Shown: positions 19,839 through 27,229 of the stretch, piece after piece | Numbering within the stretch: position 1 is the stretch's first letter | Layout: each line of letters opens with the position of its first letter | DNA from: a virus | Length of the DNA: 38,057 bases | Strand: one strand, 5' to 3' | IMG/VR virus record: IMGVR_UViG_3300023184_000286 | Location: 1 to 38,057 of that record | The notes under the pieces: model-generated | What the model was told of the DNA's origin: nothing | Database searches by the model: none | The model's input: only the letters and a program-made list of their open reading frames with translations | Position numbers and translations under genes: made by a program

Positions 19839-22800
19839 TTATTTCAATCCGCTAATTGTGCCAGGGTTCTTAAGTCTTAGAGGAATGTAAATAAACTCAA
19901 CATCCTTCATTGGCTCAATTGCTATGTCAACATATAGTTCGTTACGTGCAATACGATCTGATGTGTTGTTGCTAGTATCGCAAACAACCAAGTAATCATA
20001 TAGACCACGTTTTGCAATTAGATCGTTTAGTACACCTTCAACAAGTTGTTTAACTTGATCACGTGTAATTTTATCATTTGGCTCAAACAAGAAACCATTT
20101 GCAACACCGCGCAATACTGTACGTAAGTAGTTAACTAAACGTGCTACATTGATACGATCCATTGAACTTCCTGCACCACCGACCGATGGAGCACGAGTCT
20201 TTTGACCATAAACTACAATGCCAGCACCTTGTAACAATGTGATTGGGTTCAATCTCTTTTCGTACAATGTGTCTCTTAGTTGCTGGCTAATACCAGAACG
20301 CACAAACAATCCGCTTGTAGCATCAAGATAACCAATTGCAGTTGCATTGTCAACTAGACCGCGACGTGTGCCAGCTGGCGCAAACCACTGATAGCTTAGA
20401 TTGTCACTGTGCAAGAATGTACGCAACATCATATGGCTTGCTGGTACACAAATCTCATTGCCGGCTAGATCTGAACTTAATGCGCTTGGATAGAAAATAC
20501 CAAGGTACGAATCAGCTACAGTTTGTGCTGCATCGTATGCAGTAATATCTGTCATAGTTGCTGGTAATGTCAATGGTGTATCACCAATAACAAATCCTGT
20601 ATTAACACGGTCATTGTTTAGTTGTACCATGTTAACAATTAGCTCAGGATAACCAGGGCATGCTAGCAAGTTAAATGCATATGCTTCTTCGCGTAGGTCT
20701 GTGCTACCGTCGATAGCAGACTTTAATGCTTCTACAACTACATTGCGTTGAGCTTTGTGTCCTAGCTTAGGTGAACCATCTTCATTCAATCCAATTTCAG
20801 ATACCCAAGTTGATTTTACTGTTGGTAAATCACCTTCTGTGACATTAAATGATTGTGTGTTGAAATAATCAGCAACAAACTTTTTAACACCAAAACCGCT
20901 GCGACGTGTGTTAAACAATAATGCGCCACGTGGGTATAGTCGGAAGTTAGGAGCATCTAAATCGGTGTAGTTACTGGTTAACAAAGTAGAAGTGCTTACT
21001 AAAGATCCAGTAACTGTATCCGATTCACCATCTGTGTCCCAACGAGCATCTGCAAAAATGATGCCATTTTGGCTAGTACGATCCGTGTTATCAATTAGTA
21101 CCCACTTACCACTAGAATTGTATCTATAGATGCGTGGATAATTTTCTAAATCACCAGAATCCAACCATAAGTCGCCAGGAGCCAAACTTGCACCACTTGC
21201 ACCACTTTGTGTAGTAGGTTTAGTTGGGCTAACAATAACTCCATTTGGATCAGTTGCAGTCAAGTCGTAACCACGTGAATCGCGCGATACACCCTTATAG
21301 CCTCTCCATCCGGTGGCATCATTGATCATGATATCAACTTCTGTTGCATCATCGTAATACCAATATGTGCCAGAAGCTGGCGCAGTAGATGGTTCGGTAT
21401 TACTGTATGTATAAGTCTCTGCTCTCCAATTGGTTAAGTTTAATGTGCTAGACACAATGTTAGGCACAATACCAACTGTATTAGAAGTAAATCCGGCTAC
21501 AGTAATTGGGTTACGGCTACTAGGATTGCTTCCGTTGATCAAAGAAATCACACCGCCTGAACGATGAGAAATACTAATGTGTCCCGATTGTTCAACTGTT
21601 GCTGTTACATTTGGAATGTTTTGTGCCAATATTGCTGCCACAAAATCACTTGCCGATCTTCCAGCTAATGTACATGTGTATGATACAGGAACGTCAGTAC
21701 CAGGAACCGATACAACCATACTAAATTCATCGTCAACATTAAATGCTGTTCCGCTAGGCGCAACATCACCAGTAACTTTTACTTGACCTTTAGTTAATAG
21801 TGTATAGATTGTAAAGCTACCAAGTCCATTGTTAAGCGAGTCGCACTTGACAAATTCAGTGCCCGCTGCAATTGCAGAACCACCGGAAGTTATATCTAAA
21901 CTGTACAATGCTTGGTAAAGGTTAGGATAGACTGGTGCGGCTATAGATTTCCATGCTGCAGAACTTTCGCTATAACGTTTAATGGTAAAGTTTGCACCAT
22001 CACCTTGTGATGAAGTTTTTATCCAGACGCTATGACTTGGGCGAGTTATGTCATCATAAAGCGACCAGGCAGGAACATCAGCAAAACTACCATAGTGAAT
22101 TATTGCTCTTCCAAAAGTGTGATTGGGGATGCCAATGCTGGTTAAATCGTTTTCAACCACTGGAGTAGCTGTACCAGTAGTAGTATTATCACCATTATCG
22201 GTTGCTGTAAATAGTGTACCTGTTGTACCTGCGCTGGCTCCAACATCTGCCCAGATTGTATTACCGGCTGACGCAATTCTATACTGTCTGCCAACAATAA
22301 AATCTCCGGCGTCTACATCAACAATGTTAACAGCGGTTAAGGTAATAACTCCAAGGTTATCGCCGTCGGACGTAGCAGTGTCTGAATACAATGCCAATCT
22401 GCCAGAAGATAAAACACTAGCAGTAATGTGTACATTTGCAGTAGCATCAGTATTAATTAAATTTGCCAAATTGGCCATGTTAGTAATATTACTAGGAACT
22501 ATGATAGTTGCACCATTGCCAGCGTCATTAAGTGCAAACGCACTCCCGGCTGGGAGATTAACAGTTGATGTATCGCTGGTTGTTACAGGATAGTCATCCG
22601 ACCAGGCACTGCTACCAAGTTGGTCCCAATAATTCATATCATTTTTGTGATAGATATAGTTGTTGTTATTAAACACAGTAACAGCATACTGACCAATTGA
22701 TCCAATTGATGTTTTTGGAGTAGTAGTGCCAGAAATGCAATCGGCTGCTGAAGTAATAATATTTGGAGTTTTTTCTGCAAACTCTAATGTATCTCTGTTA

Positions 22801-23240
22801 TATTCAAAAATACCAAATGTTGTTGTAGAAGTATCTAGCCAAACTGTATTGTTTGCTGGCGTCCCGTTTGGACGAATAGAAGTTCCAACTAGTTGATCAA
22901 GATCAACATCGGCTCTAACTACCCATACTCTATTACCTAATCCCAATGCGCTATATGCGGACATTAGTCCGTATTCATTTAACTCATGTCCGTGCAGCGG
23001 TGTGTCAGATGCACTTCTTCGGAATTTAGGATATCCAAATGTATTTGCCAATTCACGTTGGCTGCTAATTCCATAAACTTTTCCAGCATTGGCTTTTAAT
23101 GAGCCTGCTGTTGTTTTTCCATTGAGAGTTTTATTCTCAGCTGTAGCTAGTAAAACAAAAGGGATCGTGCCTACCCCTGTTGGTAGGTATGCGCTCTCGT
23201 CAATTACTGTAACTTCTAAACCGGGTGATACTAATGCCAT
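19839..23240 (-). CDS. 18: Tail sheath protein gp18, enlarged
   Basis: 1133 aa against 659 in T4. The N-terminus (MALVSPGLEVTVIDESAY) and the region from about 765 to the end carry the conserved sheath core, including GFGVKKFVADYF near 782-793, FNLLACPGYPEL (856-867), RRGLVDNATAIGYL and the C-terminal DVEFIYIPLRLKNPG. Between about residues 120 and 760 lies a very large protruding region. It contains several copies of a W-I/L-x-D ... Y-x-x-x-x-W type beta module (about 130-156, 403-432, 614-648, 686-716) and a segment at 307-357 (DAGDFIVGRQYRIASAG) resembling modules common in marine phage fibres. The sheath drives contraction; the insert would be surface exposed. The gene has its own late promoter and terminator. 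Confidence 0.95.
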   Translation of the reverse strand: MALVSPGLEVTVIDESAYLPTGVGTIPFVLLATAENKTLNGKTTAGSLKANAGKVYGISSQRELANTFGYPKFRRSASDTPLHGHELNEYGLMSAYSALGLGNRVWVVRADVDLDQLVGTSIRPNGTPANNTVWLDTSTTTFGIFEYNRDTLEFAEKTPNIITSAADCISGTTTPKTSIGSIGQYAVTVFNNNNYIYHKNDMNYWDQLGSSAWSDDYPVTTSDTSTVNLPAGSAFALNDAGNGATIIVPSNITNMANLANLINTDATANVHITASVLSSGRLALYSDTATSDGDNLGVITLTAVNIVDVDAGDFIVGRQYRIASAGNTIWADVGASAGTTGTLFTATDNGDNTTTGTATPVVENDLTSIGIPNHTFGRAIIHYGSFADVPAWSLYDDITRPSHSVWIKTSSQGDGANFTIKRYSESSAAWKSIAAPVYPNLYQALYSLDITSGGSAIAAGTEFVKCDSLNNGLGSFTIYTLLTKGQVKVTGDVAPSGTAFNVDDEFSMVVSVPGTDVPVSYTCTLAGRSASDFVAAILAQNIPNVTATVEQSGHISISHRSGGVISLINGSNPSSRNPITVAGFTSNTVGIVPNIVSSTLNLTNWRAETYTYSNTEPSTAPASGTYWYYDDATEVDIMINDATGWRGYKGVSRDSRGYDLTATDPNGVIVSPTKPTTQSGASGASLAPGDLWLDSGDLENYPRIYRYNSSGKWVLIDNTDRTSQNGIIFADARWDTDGESDTVTGSLVSTSTLLTSNYTDLDAPNFRLYPRGALLFNTRRSGFGVKKFVADYFNTQSFNVTEGDLPTVKSTWVSEIGLNEDGSPKLGHKAQRNVVVEALKSAIDGSTDLREEAYAFNLLACPGYPELIVNMVQLNNDRVNTGFVIGDTPLTLPATMTDITAYDAAQTVADSYLGIFYPSALSSDLAGNEICVPASHMMLRTFLHSDNLSYQWFAPAGTRRGLVDNATAIGYLDATSGLFVRSGISQQLRDTLYEKRLNPITLLQGAGIVVYGQKTRAPSVGGAGSSMDRINVARLVNYLRTVLRGVANGFLFEPNDKITRDQVKQLVEGVLNDLIAKRGLYDYLVVCDTSNNTSDRIARNELYVDIAIEPMKDVEFIYIPLRLKNPGTISGLK

Positions 23241-23344: not shown

Positions 23345-23713
23345 ATGCCGCAATCAACTGCAACCGCTAAAAGAAAAATCTGCCCTGTATGCAAATTTTA
23401 TCCAGTGGCTGTTAATTACCATCGCAACAATAAAGTATATTATCGTGCTATGTGTACATCTTGTATTCACAAAGGTAAAAAAGTTAAACCTGAAGCACCA
23501 AATTGGTACAAATCGGGTTATAGAAAAAAAGAAAAATGTGACAAGTGTGGATTCAAGTTTAAATTGCTTGAACAATCCAATGTCTATCACGTTGACGGCA
23601 ATGAAAACAATGCCAATTGGACAAACTTAAAGACTATTTGTCTTAACTGTCAGAAAGAAGTAGGAAGTATGAAAACTGCCTGGAAACCGGGCAGGATTAC
23701 ACCAGATTTTTAA
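23345..23713 (+). CDS. Zinc-ribbon HNH-type endonuclease-like protein, 122 aa
   Basis: 122 aa. Four CxxC pairs (Cys13/16, 37/40, 65/68 and 99/102) make two zinc sites. The second pair flanks a YHVDGNENNANWTNLKTIC segment with His82, Asp84 and Asn86, the pattern of HNH beta-beta-alpha-metal nucleases (C-x2-C ... H-x-D-G ... N-L-x-x-x-C-x2-C). It is small, with no obvious extra DNA-binding domain apart from its basic N-terminus. AAGGA lies 12 nt before the ATG. It is the only plus-strand gene amid minus-strand structural genes, which may mark an independently acquired gene. Its end overlaps the dNMP kinase end by 17 bp. Catalytic activity is probable but not certain; it may instead be a transcription-linked zinc protein. 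Confidence 0.7.
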   Translation: MPQSTATAKRKICPVCKFYPVAVNYHRNNKVYYRAMCTSCIHKGKKVKPEAPNWYKSGYRKKEKCDKCGFKFKLLEQSNVYHVDGNENNANWTNLKTICLNCQKEVGSMKTAWKPGRITPDF

Positions 23714-24305
23714 GTTGAGCATACATATCTTCAATGTTGCCGTTGTTGTTAATGGTAGCATCGAATTTAGTCCCAACCCACGAAGTTTCGCTAGGATGAA
23801 TTTTATGTGAGTATAGTGCTTGAGCAGCATATATGTTGCCCTGATTGGCTTTAACTGCAATGTCATACCACCAAGGAAGCTCACCACGCTCAATCCAAAC
23901 TATGCGGCCGTTTTGTTCTTTAATGGATTTAATTTCATTGGGGAAACGGCAATCGCTAATAACTACATTGTCTTTACTATTTCGTAGCTTATTTTCTAAG
24001 CTAGCAATCCATATGTCATCGTGAAATGTTTTGCGGCATACTTCTGTGCCCCAGTTTTGTAGTATCCAACGTGGAGTAATATCCATGCCTAAACGATTGC
24101 TCCACCATTCGTCTCGCTGTTCACGCCATTCACGTGCTTGTTTAGTGCGACCTTCAAGTAATTCTCTGTCCCAGCCAAAGATAGCACTTATTGCATCCTT
24201 TAGAGTGCTAGCAAAACTTTCGCGGCGAAACTCATAAAAGTTTACCAGATAGTCTGCTGCTGTGTCTTTGCCAGATCCGATGAATCCACATATACCAATG
24301 ATCAT
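23697..24305 (-). CDS. 1: Deoxynucleoside monophosphate kinase (gp1-type)
   Basis: 202 aa. The P-loop GFIGSGKDT lies at 7-15, very close to the N-terminus, which fixes the start. DRELLEGRTKQAREWREQRD (about 46-65) with the following WWSNRLG and TPRWILQNWGTEVCR segments are characteristic of T4 gp1-type dNMP kinases, as is the VVISDCRFPNEIKSIK segment (about 113-128). The enzyme phosphorylates dNMPs to supply phage DNA synthesis. The gene has a consensus-like sigma70 promoter whose -10 box lies inside the terminator hairpin of the upstream gene, leaving a short leader with GAGGG. Early expression is expected. The end overlaps the plus-strand HNH gene. Confidence 0.9.
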   Translation of the reverse strand: MIIGICGFIGSGKDTAADYLVNFYEFRRESFASTLKDAISAIFGWDRELLEGRTKQAREWREQRDEWWSNRLGMDITPRWILQNWGTEVCRKTFHDDIWIASLENKLRNSKDNVVISDCRFPNEIKSIKEQNGRIVWIERGELPWWYDIAVKANQGNIYAAQALYSHKIHPSETSWVGTKFDATINNNGNIEDMYAQLKNLV

Positions 24306-24307
24306 AA

Positions 24308-24330
24308 AAAATGCCCTCTAAGGGCATTTT
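24308..24330 (-). terminator. Terminator hairpin fused to the dNMP kinase leader
   Basis: A perfect 10-bp stem AAAATGCCCT/AGGGCATTTT (24308-24317 and 24321-24330) with a 3-nt loop and six U on the minus strand, ending 2 nt before the kinase ATG. It would stop transcripts coming from gp13 and the 123-aa gene. In readthrough RNA it would bury the kinase ribosome site. Confidence 0.85.
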
Positions 24331-24354
24331 AGCATAGCACTAGATCAATGTCAA
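24326..24354 (-). promoter_or_regulatory. Sigma70-like promoter of dNMP kinase, inside a terminator
   Basis: Minus strand perfect TTGACA (24349-24354), 17 bp, TAAAAT (24326-24331). The -10 box forms part of the terminator stem, and the start near 24319 falls in or next to the loop, so RNA made here begins about at AGAGGGC and cannot form the hairpin. Confidence 0.75.
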
Positions 24355-24358
24355 CGTA

Positions 24359-24730
24359 TTAAACGCCGTACTGATTTTTTTTGATTTTTGCAGTTGGGCT
24401 AACTCTATATACCCCGGGCACTTCTTCGCTTCTTTTACTACTCCAAGTTTGCTTGCTGCCGTCACCAACTTGTGCAGCAGCGGCATTGATCATATCTAAT
24501 TCTTCTTTGGTATAAGGGGCTAGTAACGGATCGCCTGCAATGTAATTGTCAGCTTTGGTGGGATAATCTGGGGCGCCTGCCAGTGCAATTCCAAATCTAT
24601 AGTTTTTGTAAGCAGAGCCAGTACTCATATTTTGTCCCGGAAAGGTAACTGCATTTTGAATTGCAGATTCGTGCTCAACGGGCATAGGGTGCATTCCGCC
24701 ACTTTCAAAAATAATATCTTTAATTTTCAT
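24359..24730 (-). CDS. Small putative head-internal protein, 123 aa
   Basis: 123 aa. MKIKDIIFE before SGG looks like a capsid-targeting leader with an I-x-E cleavage site at residue 9. The remainder is polar, Pro/Gly/Ala-rich and probably partly disordered, ending in a basic SPTAKIKKNQYGV. No domain recognised. It starts 10 bp after the gp13 stop and has a GATAAATA octamer 7 nt before its ATG; otherwise it would be read with gp13. A terminator follows. A small packaged protein in the manner of T4 IPI-IPIII is a reasonable reading but unproven. Confidence 0.6.
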   Translation of the reverse strand: MKIKDIIFESGGMHPMPVEHESAIQNAVTFPGQNMSTGSAYKNYRFGIALAGAPDYPTKADNYIAGDPLLAPYTKEELDMINAAAAQVGDGSKQTWSSKRSEEVPGVYRVSPTAKIKKNQYGV

Positions 24731-24737
24731 AGTAAAC

Positions 24738-24745
24738 TATTTATC
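24738..24745 (-). promoter_or_regulatory. Late promoter octamer GATAAATA overlapping the gp13 stop
   Basis: GATAAATA on the minus strand overlaps the stop codon of gp13. The expected start is 24731-24732, one or two bases before the ATG at 24730, which would give a leaderless message. It may be fortuitous. Confidence 0.4.
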
Positions 24746-25874
24746 CAATTATCCAAGTTAATGGTTGCGAGCCATCTACGTAGTTCTTAAGATCGTTTTC
24801 TAACTGTTCCATTTCTGCCAGTGCTTCGGACTTTAGTGAATCTCCATTTAATGTAGTGCCTCCTTGCGGCCCTGCAATTTGTGCAAACTTGCTACGTGCT
24901 TCGCCTAGTATTCTTTTGGCAAAACTATACGCATAGTCTTGTAGCCACGGAAAGATCAAATGATCGTTTAACAACATAGCGTCTGGCTTATAATTGTAAG
25001 TGTGTAACAGCACAGACTCAGCTGGCATGTCAGTTTTTGGGCTTGAAACTTGTGTACTGCGCAGGTCATATGCAGTAACCGATGTTGCCTGTAATTGATT
25101 TGTGCTGGTAATAGTAATAGTGTTGCTCAATCCATTGACTGTTTGAATTAAATAGTATCCATTGTATCCAACCACTTTGCAATTAGAGATCGTTATATTA
25201 TCCCCGGGCTGTACATTCCACGCATCTTCTGTGACAATAGTTATTGTACTGCCAACAGTTTGAGCATTGGCTGTTATAGATGTCAGTCTGACGTAAGTGT
25301 GGCCAACAGCAGGTATTTTGCGGTGTACTGTTAGTTTTCTAGTAGCAGGATTCCAAGTAAAATTCATGTAACCGCCAAACATCTTCATCGATTGCTCTTG
25401 GTATTGCGCAAACAATTCGTAATTGGCCAGGCCACCAACTCTCCCCGACTGCAACATATAGGTGTTTAAATAACCACTGGCAAATGGTTCAAATTGGCTA
25501 GCTGTGGTTCCTGTTACGCTGCCGATGCCTCTACGAAATATCTGCTTAACTGTGATAATTTCAGTAGGTAAAATATATTCTTGTGTCTCAGGCAACAGAT
25601 TTAAAAATACATAACTTTCCTCAACTGAGTTTTGTGCTCGTTGACGATACTTTACCAGTGCCTGTTTGATGGCCATCAAATAATGCTCTTGATCAAGTTC
25701 GACATCAACAATGCCATCTGCTAATCTAAGACGTGCATAATCAATTATGTCATTTCTTCTTGAATCAATGGGCGGTAATACTGTCGGGTCAAACGCAATA
25801 GGACCGGGCCCCCCTAGGCTGTCAGCACTAATTGATTGGGTTATTGGATCTAATCCGGGTTTAAGTGTGGCCAT
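24741..25874 (-). CDS. 13: Neck protein gp13
   Basis: 377 aa (T4 gp13 is 309). The helical start ([35 protein letters not shown], about 39-73) parallels the T4 region with [36 protein letters not shown] matches the T4 VTRILRTNIGSI strand. The end ([32 protein letters not shown] ... [20 protein letters not shown]) matches the T4 C-terminal helices. Between about residues 195 and 285 is an inserted strand-rich segment ([19 protein letters not shown]) not in T4. Gp13 and gp14 build the neck where the tail docks. Upstream is a 15-bp inverted repeat with a CTAAATA heptamer; the ribosome site is AGGAAC. Confidence 0.88.
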   Translation of the reverse strand: [377 protein letters not shown]

Positions 25875-25890: not shown

Positions 25891-25928
25891 TCTGTTGCTA
25901 AGTATTTAGCCATATACTTAGCAACAGA
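25891..25928 (-). repeat. Perfect 15-bp inverted repeat upstream of gp13
   Basis: TCTGTTGCTAAGTAT (25891-25905) and ATACTTAGCAACAGA (25914-25928) are exact inverted copies around an 8-nt loop, in the 63-bp gap between the 391-aa gene and gp13. There is no U tract, so it is not a classical terminator; it may be an RNA processing site or a stability element. Confidence 0.85.
25903..25909 (-). promoter_or_regulatory. Late-promoter-like CTAAATA of gp13
   Basis: CTAAATA on the minus strand at the loop of the 15-bp inverted repeat. A start near 25897 gives a 23-nt leader with AGGAAC before the ATG at 25874. Confidence 0.5.
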
Positions 25929-27144: not shown

Positions 27145-27173
27145 ATTTTAGCAGGTTTGGGCCCACTTGTCAA
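27145..27173 (-). promoter_or_regulatory. Sigma70-like promoter of the 391-aa gene
   Basis: Minus strand perfect TTGACA (27168-27173), 17 bp, TAAAAT (27145-27150). The start near 27138 gives a leader of about 25 nt with CGGAGT before the ATG at 27113. The -35, -10 and spacer length are the same as in the dNMP kinase promoter. Confidence 0.75.
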
Positions 27174-27200
27174 GCAAAATCTGAGCCATTTTAGCAAATT

Positions 27201-27208
27201 TATTTATA
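27201..27208 (-). promoter_or_regulatory. Exact T4 late promoter TATAAATA, leftward
   Basis: The full late consensus on the minus strand. The start near 27195 would give an 82-nt leader to the 391-aa gene, passing over the sigma70 promoter. It forms a divergent pair with the rightward late promoter at 27230. Confidence 0.7.
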
Positions 27209-27229
27209 AAAATCAAACTTAAATAAATC

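Follow-up and report, generated by a model that had tools for sequence, protein, structure and literature searches.

Expression of the T4 gp1-like dNMP kinase encoded by this phage is probably decided by the point at which its transcript starts, since the early promoter of the gene, which is of the host type (σ70), lies inside an RNA hairpin that covers the ribosome site. RNA initiated at this promoter would begin in the loop and lack the 5′ arm, so that a free ribosome site would lie at most about 14 nt from its 5′ end, and RNA arriving from the upstream late unit would carry both arms, fold the hairpin and hide the Shine-Dalgarno (SD) sequence. In the window phage and in about one in six relatives, such read-through RNA would probably also terminate at a T-run. 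No ligand or signal would be sensed in this process, as the start point of the transcript alone would decide. The evidence obtained directly comprises the anatomy of the leader, the conservation of its promoter, the coevolution of the arms in the sense RNA and the lack of pairing at a control gene and in those relatives that have no recognisable promoter. A switch that is on early and off late offers the best reading of this layout, from which we infer the start site, the strength of repression and that the incoming RNA is late, as well as the benefit, which would lie in making the kinase early and not late.

Anatomy of the kinase leader and its genomic surroundings

The window, by which we denote the entire analysed stretch of 38,057 nucleotides, is a 38-kb fragment. 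On its minus strand, positions 24354 to 24303 contain, in this order, TTGACA-17-TAAAAT, GCCCTTAGAGGGCATTTTTT and the ATG of the kinase. The features of the region, all on the minus strand, are as follows:

19839–23240: tail sheath gene (late), downstream of the kinase, with AATAAATA 39 nt before its ATG
23697–24305: dNMP kinase, T4 gp1-like, 202 aa (PHROG 139, E=9e-55; PF21448)
24303–24305: kinase ATG
24306–24311: TTTTTT run, likely making the hairpin an intrinsic terminator for read-through RNA
24308–24330: hairpin AAAATGCCCT-TAG-AGGGCATTTT (23 bp), 10 perfect pairs, loop of 3
24308–24317: 3′ arm AGGGCATTTT
24314–24318: SD-like GAGGG, ending 8 nt 5′ of the ATG, mostly in the 3′ arm
24319: predicted transcription start (A), seventh base after the -10, in the hairpin loop, placed by spacing
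24321–24330: 5′ arm AAAATGCCCT, upstream of the predicted start and so missing from promoter-started RNA; its role is supported by arm covariation
24326–24331: -10 hexamer TAAAAT, with TG two bases upstream; five of its six bases within the 5′ arm
24349–24354: -35 hexamer TTGACA; relatives keep TTGAC(A/C/T) at -47 to -55 from the ATG
24359–24730: co-directional ORF directly upstream of the kinase, 123 aa, no family matched
about 24738–24745: T4-type late-promoter-like GATAAATA before the 123-aa ORF
24741–25874: neck/head-tail adaptor, a late structural gene (phrog_211 'head-tail adaptor Ad2', E=9e-30)

This arrangement confirms three claims of the first-pass annotation, which had recognised at 24303–24354 a near-consensus promoter with its -10 in the stem, a GAGGG about 8 nt before the ATG that is paired in the 10-bp hairpin, and an RNA start that is predicted to fall into the loop. 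It corrects a fourth, as the gene directly upstream, previously taken to be gp13, is instead the 123-aa ORF, and the neck/adaptor gene is found one gene further. Upstream of the kinase, the same strand thus carries the 123-aa ORF, the neck/adaptor gene and one more gene, and downstream the tail sheath. The order neck, small ORF, kinase, sheath is kept in the cultured phages CBB, Kaldavass, XbC2, BF, 121Q and GAP32 and in others.

The hairpin has a minimum free energy of −11.6 kcal/mol in the window sequence, and its GCCC/GGGC stem followed by TTTTTT displays the GC-rich stem and T-run of an intrinsic terminator. It is not among the sites listed by a terminator scan of the window, apparently because its A-U pairs were counted as part of the stem, leaving only TT as tail. 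By itself the hairpin is unremarkable, since 12 sites in the window can form a perfect hairpin of at least 9 bp; it is the overlap of hairpin and promoter, and the retention of this overlap in relatives, that goes beyond chance. The motif TTGACA-N17-TAAAAT is present twice in the window, where 0.03 occurrences are expected from shuffles, and a repeat search confined to the window revealed no second copy of the combined promoter-hairpin element.

The surrounding genes carry signs of late expression. The T4-type late motif NATAAATA is found nine times in the window, in eight cases no more than 60 nt from the start of an ORF, and it is located within 60 nt upstream of 8 of the 33 main ORF starts (0.01 expected per start). 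It precedes the 123-aa gene and the sheath and is absent before the window kinase, and none of the 150 promoter-bearing kinase leaders scanned in relatives contains it. In a close relative of 199 kb, 17 of 101 long ORFs are associated with the motif compared to 0.7 expected, and a larger relative encodes a T4-gp55-like late sigma factor. The counts of the motif on the same and opposite strand upstream of the kinase in relatives (69 vs 46 loci) were too weak to be used as evidence. The kinase appears as a gene with a σ70-type promoter within late territory, where the lateness of the neighbours, and with it the late timing of the upstream unit in this fragment, is deduced from motif and gene identity.

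Three further elements were observed in the window. A perfect 15-bp hairpin with a loop of 8 and without T-run (25891–25928) lies immediately upstream of the neck/adaptor ribosome site, two tandem extended -10 promoters TGCTAAAAT, with a -10 identical to that of the kinase promoter, are located upstream of a 391-aa gene (27145–27216), and a 122-aa ORF on the plus strand (23345–23713), for which no Pfam match was found, is antisense to the gap between kinase and sheath and overlaps the 3′ end of the kinase.

Conservation of the layout in relatives

Four scans provided at least about 296 kinase loci with 221 distinct leaders, 176 of which remained after near-copies had been collapsed; as these relatives are not independent, the counts overstate the number of evolutionary events. 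Among the matches listed, a promoter, called at a hexamer match of at least 9 of 12, is found in 150 of the 176 non-redundant leaders at a nearly fixed distance to the ATG, and the base at the predicted start is A or T in 146 of these 150 and never C. The upstream ORF ends at a median of 55 nt before the kinase ATG, and the intergenic gap therefore consists essentially of promoter and leader. Since this ORF is co-directional in 146 of 149 cases, its orientation was uninformative as a contrast.

The layout proposed for the window recurs upstream of gene 1 in relatives, as had been suggested as a check: the position of the promoter, the predicted start within the hairpin and the ribosome site or AUG in the 3′ arm are kept, with compensatory changes, in about 118 of the 150 promoter-bearing leaders, and a weak helix or none is found in the remaining 32. 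The -10 and discriminator lie within the stem in about 90 leaders, in line with the original expectation of a conserved -10 in the stem, whereas in 27 leaders, which depart from it, the 5′ arm is located at the -35 and spacer instead. The conserved trait thus appears to be a 5′ arm upstream of the start site rather than a -10 in the stem. Similarly, the earlier description of a terminator that hides the ribosome site holds for the hiding but only in part for the termination: a T-run is present in 24 of the 150 leaders (the window and 23 relatives) and absent in 126, from which it appears that hiding of the start site is the common feature of these leaders and termination an extra.

The pairing was quantified by joining each sequence between promoter and predicted start to its own leader and computing the interaction energy. 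With a mean of −9.80 kcal/mol, own pairs are considerably stronger than combinations with promoters of other phages (−5.33, sd 0.20) or shuffles of own composition, in which spacer and discriminator were shuffled and the hexamers kept fixed (−5.55, sd 0.17). A value of −10 kcal/mol is reached by half of the leaders compared to 3% of sequence windows inside the upstream genes, which average −3.8. In 17 relatives without recognisable promoter, many of which overlap the upstream stop, the average is −2.5. No signal was detected for the late-sigma gene of the same clade, whose 38 promoters are equally conserved (−2.51 own vs −2.67 foreign). In five large relatives, the mean for other promoter-bearing ORFs lies between about −3.5 and −4.7, with a z close to 0 in four of the genomes, and the kinase is first or among the first of the promoter-bearing genes in G001, G002, G004 and G007, whereas it is not an outlier in G006 (dE −5.6). 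These genome-wide scans, together with the late-sigma control, led us to reject pairing as a generic property of the promoters of these phages. Counts of minimum-free-energy base-pairs between pre-start sequence and leader separated own and foreign combinations poorly (13.6 vs 12.1), whereas energies and helices do separate them. A late-sigma leader with a start-codon stem (L314:2044) was considered as a second case and rejected, as its stem is not conserved.

In foldings of longer RNA, the modelled closure of the ribosome site by read-through is moderate. The median openness of the SD is 0.38 in read-through RNA and 0.50 in promoter RNA, the latter being modelled as more open in 108 leaders and as less open in 25. 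For the window, the respective values are 0.44 and 0.68, whereas the modelled openness of its AUG falls from 0.58 in read-through RNA to 0.26 in promoter RNA.

Coevolution of the arms and alternative explanations

Compensatory changes were identified in three separately aligned groups of leaders, in each of which the covariation score was reached by none of 500 shuffles and collapsed upon sliding the alignment by one to three columns. In one group, the -10 is paired to the start codon (TATAATNNN...NNNATTATG), in another it is the discriminator that pairs to the start codon (TAGCG...CGCTATG), and the third is of the terminator type found in the window. In a fourth group, of the -35 type (A4), which was misregistered by MAFFT and whose arms were for that reason read by eye, bases following the -35 pair with the SD (TTGACCCCTGTAAT...ATTACAGGGGTT), with arm variants such as CCCCCG/CGGGGG, CCCCG/CGGGG and CCCCTCA/TGAGGGG. 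In total, the 118 helices comprise 87 distinct arm pairs in several registers with variable loops, and a quickly computed kinase tree with many weak branches requires 71 or more changes of hairpin class. It thus appears that the layout is conserved by pairing and not by sequence.

These data bear on three alternative explanations. The inverted repeat could be an operator in the DNA, bound by a dimeric protein that represses the early promoter, and a dyad symmetry around -10 and start is indeed typical of operators. G-U pairs, however, form only in the sense RNA, and a DNA palindrome would show G-U and A-C mismatches alike. Within helices seeded by Watson-Crick pairs, we found 37 internal G-U compared to 4 A-C mismatches at a background ratio of 527:407 (Fisher p about 6e-6, a value that is optimistic since the relatives share descent), which argues that the pairing of the arms was selected in RNA. 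As moreover the hairpins differ greatly in arm sequence, in register and in the length of the loop without losing their pairing, and neither a conserved recognition sequence nor a fixed spacing of half-sites was found among the kinase leaders, we give hardly any credence to an operator.

More weight, although still an unlikely account, has the proposal that the hairpin is an ordinary terminator of the upstream unit, into whose 50 bp the promoter was packed for compactness, with the hiding of the ribosome site being incidental. The T-run in the window and its 23 relatives would be accounted for in this way, as would the terminator-like hairpins that precede the kinase in the cultured relatives CBB, GAP32, BF, Munch and XaC1 and the promoters nested in terminators in front of DnaJ-like genes of the same phages. 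It would not account for the 126 leaders without T-run, most of which still have coevolved pairing with SD or AUG, nor for the stems that extend into the start codon in two large groups. A hairpin acting mainly on the processing or 3′-stability of the late mRNA, as RNase site or protector of the 3′ end with the kinase merely located downstream, would be compatible with its position where the upstream cistron ends and with its formation in read-through RNA only. We consider this very improbable, since the 3′ arm covers the SD or AUG and not just any part of the intergenic gap, and since promoterless relatives lack the pairing. The control of kinase expression by the start point of its transcript remains our preferred interpretation.

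Relation to known systems and to other early genes

A comparable geometry is found in the T4 late genes e, soc, 49 and I-TevI, and also in segB and in mobE of Aeh1, where the ribosome site is hidden in RNA started upstream and the promoter is contained within the 5′ arm (PMC3014915, PMC2988022). The genes under such T4-type read-through hairpins are all late (PMC2988022). As in e, soc and I-TevI, the SD, the AUG or both are paired in upstream-started kinase RNA, as judged from predicted pairing and covariation, and the kinase promoter overlaps the 5′ arm or directly follows it, so that RNA from its predicted start would not contain the hairpin. In T4, a late local promoter (TATAAATA) serves a late gene and the hidden RNA is early or middle, whereas the kinase promoter is of the σ70 type, the gene product acts in nucleotide metabolism and the RNA that reads in probably belongs to the late class. 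The kinase layout thus seems to work like the T4 hairpins while departing from their late genes and late promoters. In open-licence papers, to which the literature search was confined, we found no early gene that uses the T4 geometry in the reverse sense, and this absence is weak evidence.

Strong σ70 promoters combined with stem-loops are also a property of the PeSL elements of RB49 and phi1, which Arbiol et al. reportedly described in 2010 as an early σ70 promoter with a terminator stem-loop. PeSLs are repeated, mobile and interchangeable cassettes in hyperplastic early regions, unlike the kinase element, which occurs once in the window, in the region from neck to sheath. The early promoters of RB49 often contain a hairpin overlapping spacer and -10 (such as ATGGGAGTAGTAAAATACTCCCAT), and we take these to be probable PeSLs; in contrast to the kinase leader, their SD is located outside the stem and the pairing between pre-start sequence and leader does not exceed background (mean −3.77, z −0.07). 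In the RB49 sequences L635–L637, many early promoters carry a GC-rich hairpin with the -10 as loop or 3′ arm (L635 near 39130, 36985 and 3201). In the transposase genes of IS10 and IS50, a hairpin over the ribosome site guards against outside transcription. The kinase would similarly be shielded from read-through by a pairing that is impossible in internally started RNA, although IS10 and IS50 protect a mobile element by use of terminal repeat sequence and have no temporal phage programme.

Related layouts are found at other genes of these phages. At DnaJ-like genes, the promoter lies within a terminator hairpin whose arms covary (22 leaders, pairing −14.8 vs −8.4), and some MazG genes show the -35-type layout (8 promoter-bearing leaders, −11.8 vs −6.5). 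Nine kinase relatives (L277, L284, L297, L294, L115, L290, L137, L154 and L243) have a -10-like sequence about 5 nt from the ATG and no SD and thus a probably leaderless early mRNA; incoming RNA would in this group lack a ribosome site by another route. On balance, we lean towards a wider reading, in which promoters nested in hairpins, as T4 start-site hairpins of reverse polarity, would insulate early genes in the late territory of a large phage clade from late RNA, having re-evolved repeatedly in different registers and apparently been replaced by leaderless starts in one group, with some form of it being used by no fewer than three early genes (dNMP kinase, DnaJ-like and MazG). If so, temporal control by the start point of the transcript would run in both directions in T4-like phages, selection would maintain complementarity rather than sequence in a mechanism that is testable with one reporter pair, and a simple sequence signature would become available for early genes shielded from incoming RNA in uncultured phages.

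Individual leaders illustrate the diversity of these elements. Among the DnaJ-like cases (L567, L611, L583, L298:3342, L310:11306 and L365:4495), arms include AAAGGTATAG/CTATACCTTT, GGTCAGTT/AACTGACC and AGCAAGG/CCTTGCT, and in MazG-like (pyrophosphatase) leaders (L475, L476 and L531) hairpins of the type TTGACTCCTAAT..ATTAGGAGTTT link -35 and SD. In the distant cultured Agrobacterium phage Atu_ph07 (L331), a kinase-leader hairpin GGTATTCTCT..AGAGAATACC surrounds a possible -10 just before position 1192. The region 2681–3000 of L019 contains a relict kinase start, consisting of a hairpin promoter (TTGACC..TATAATTGTCGTATAGGAGATAGTTATG) and about 8 kinase codons, which some 250 nt of other DNA separate from a second σ70 promoter with a working, hairpin-free kinase start. 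This arrangement is also present in L018, L020, L022, L023, L026 and L028 and apparently reflects an insertion that cost the hairpin.
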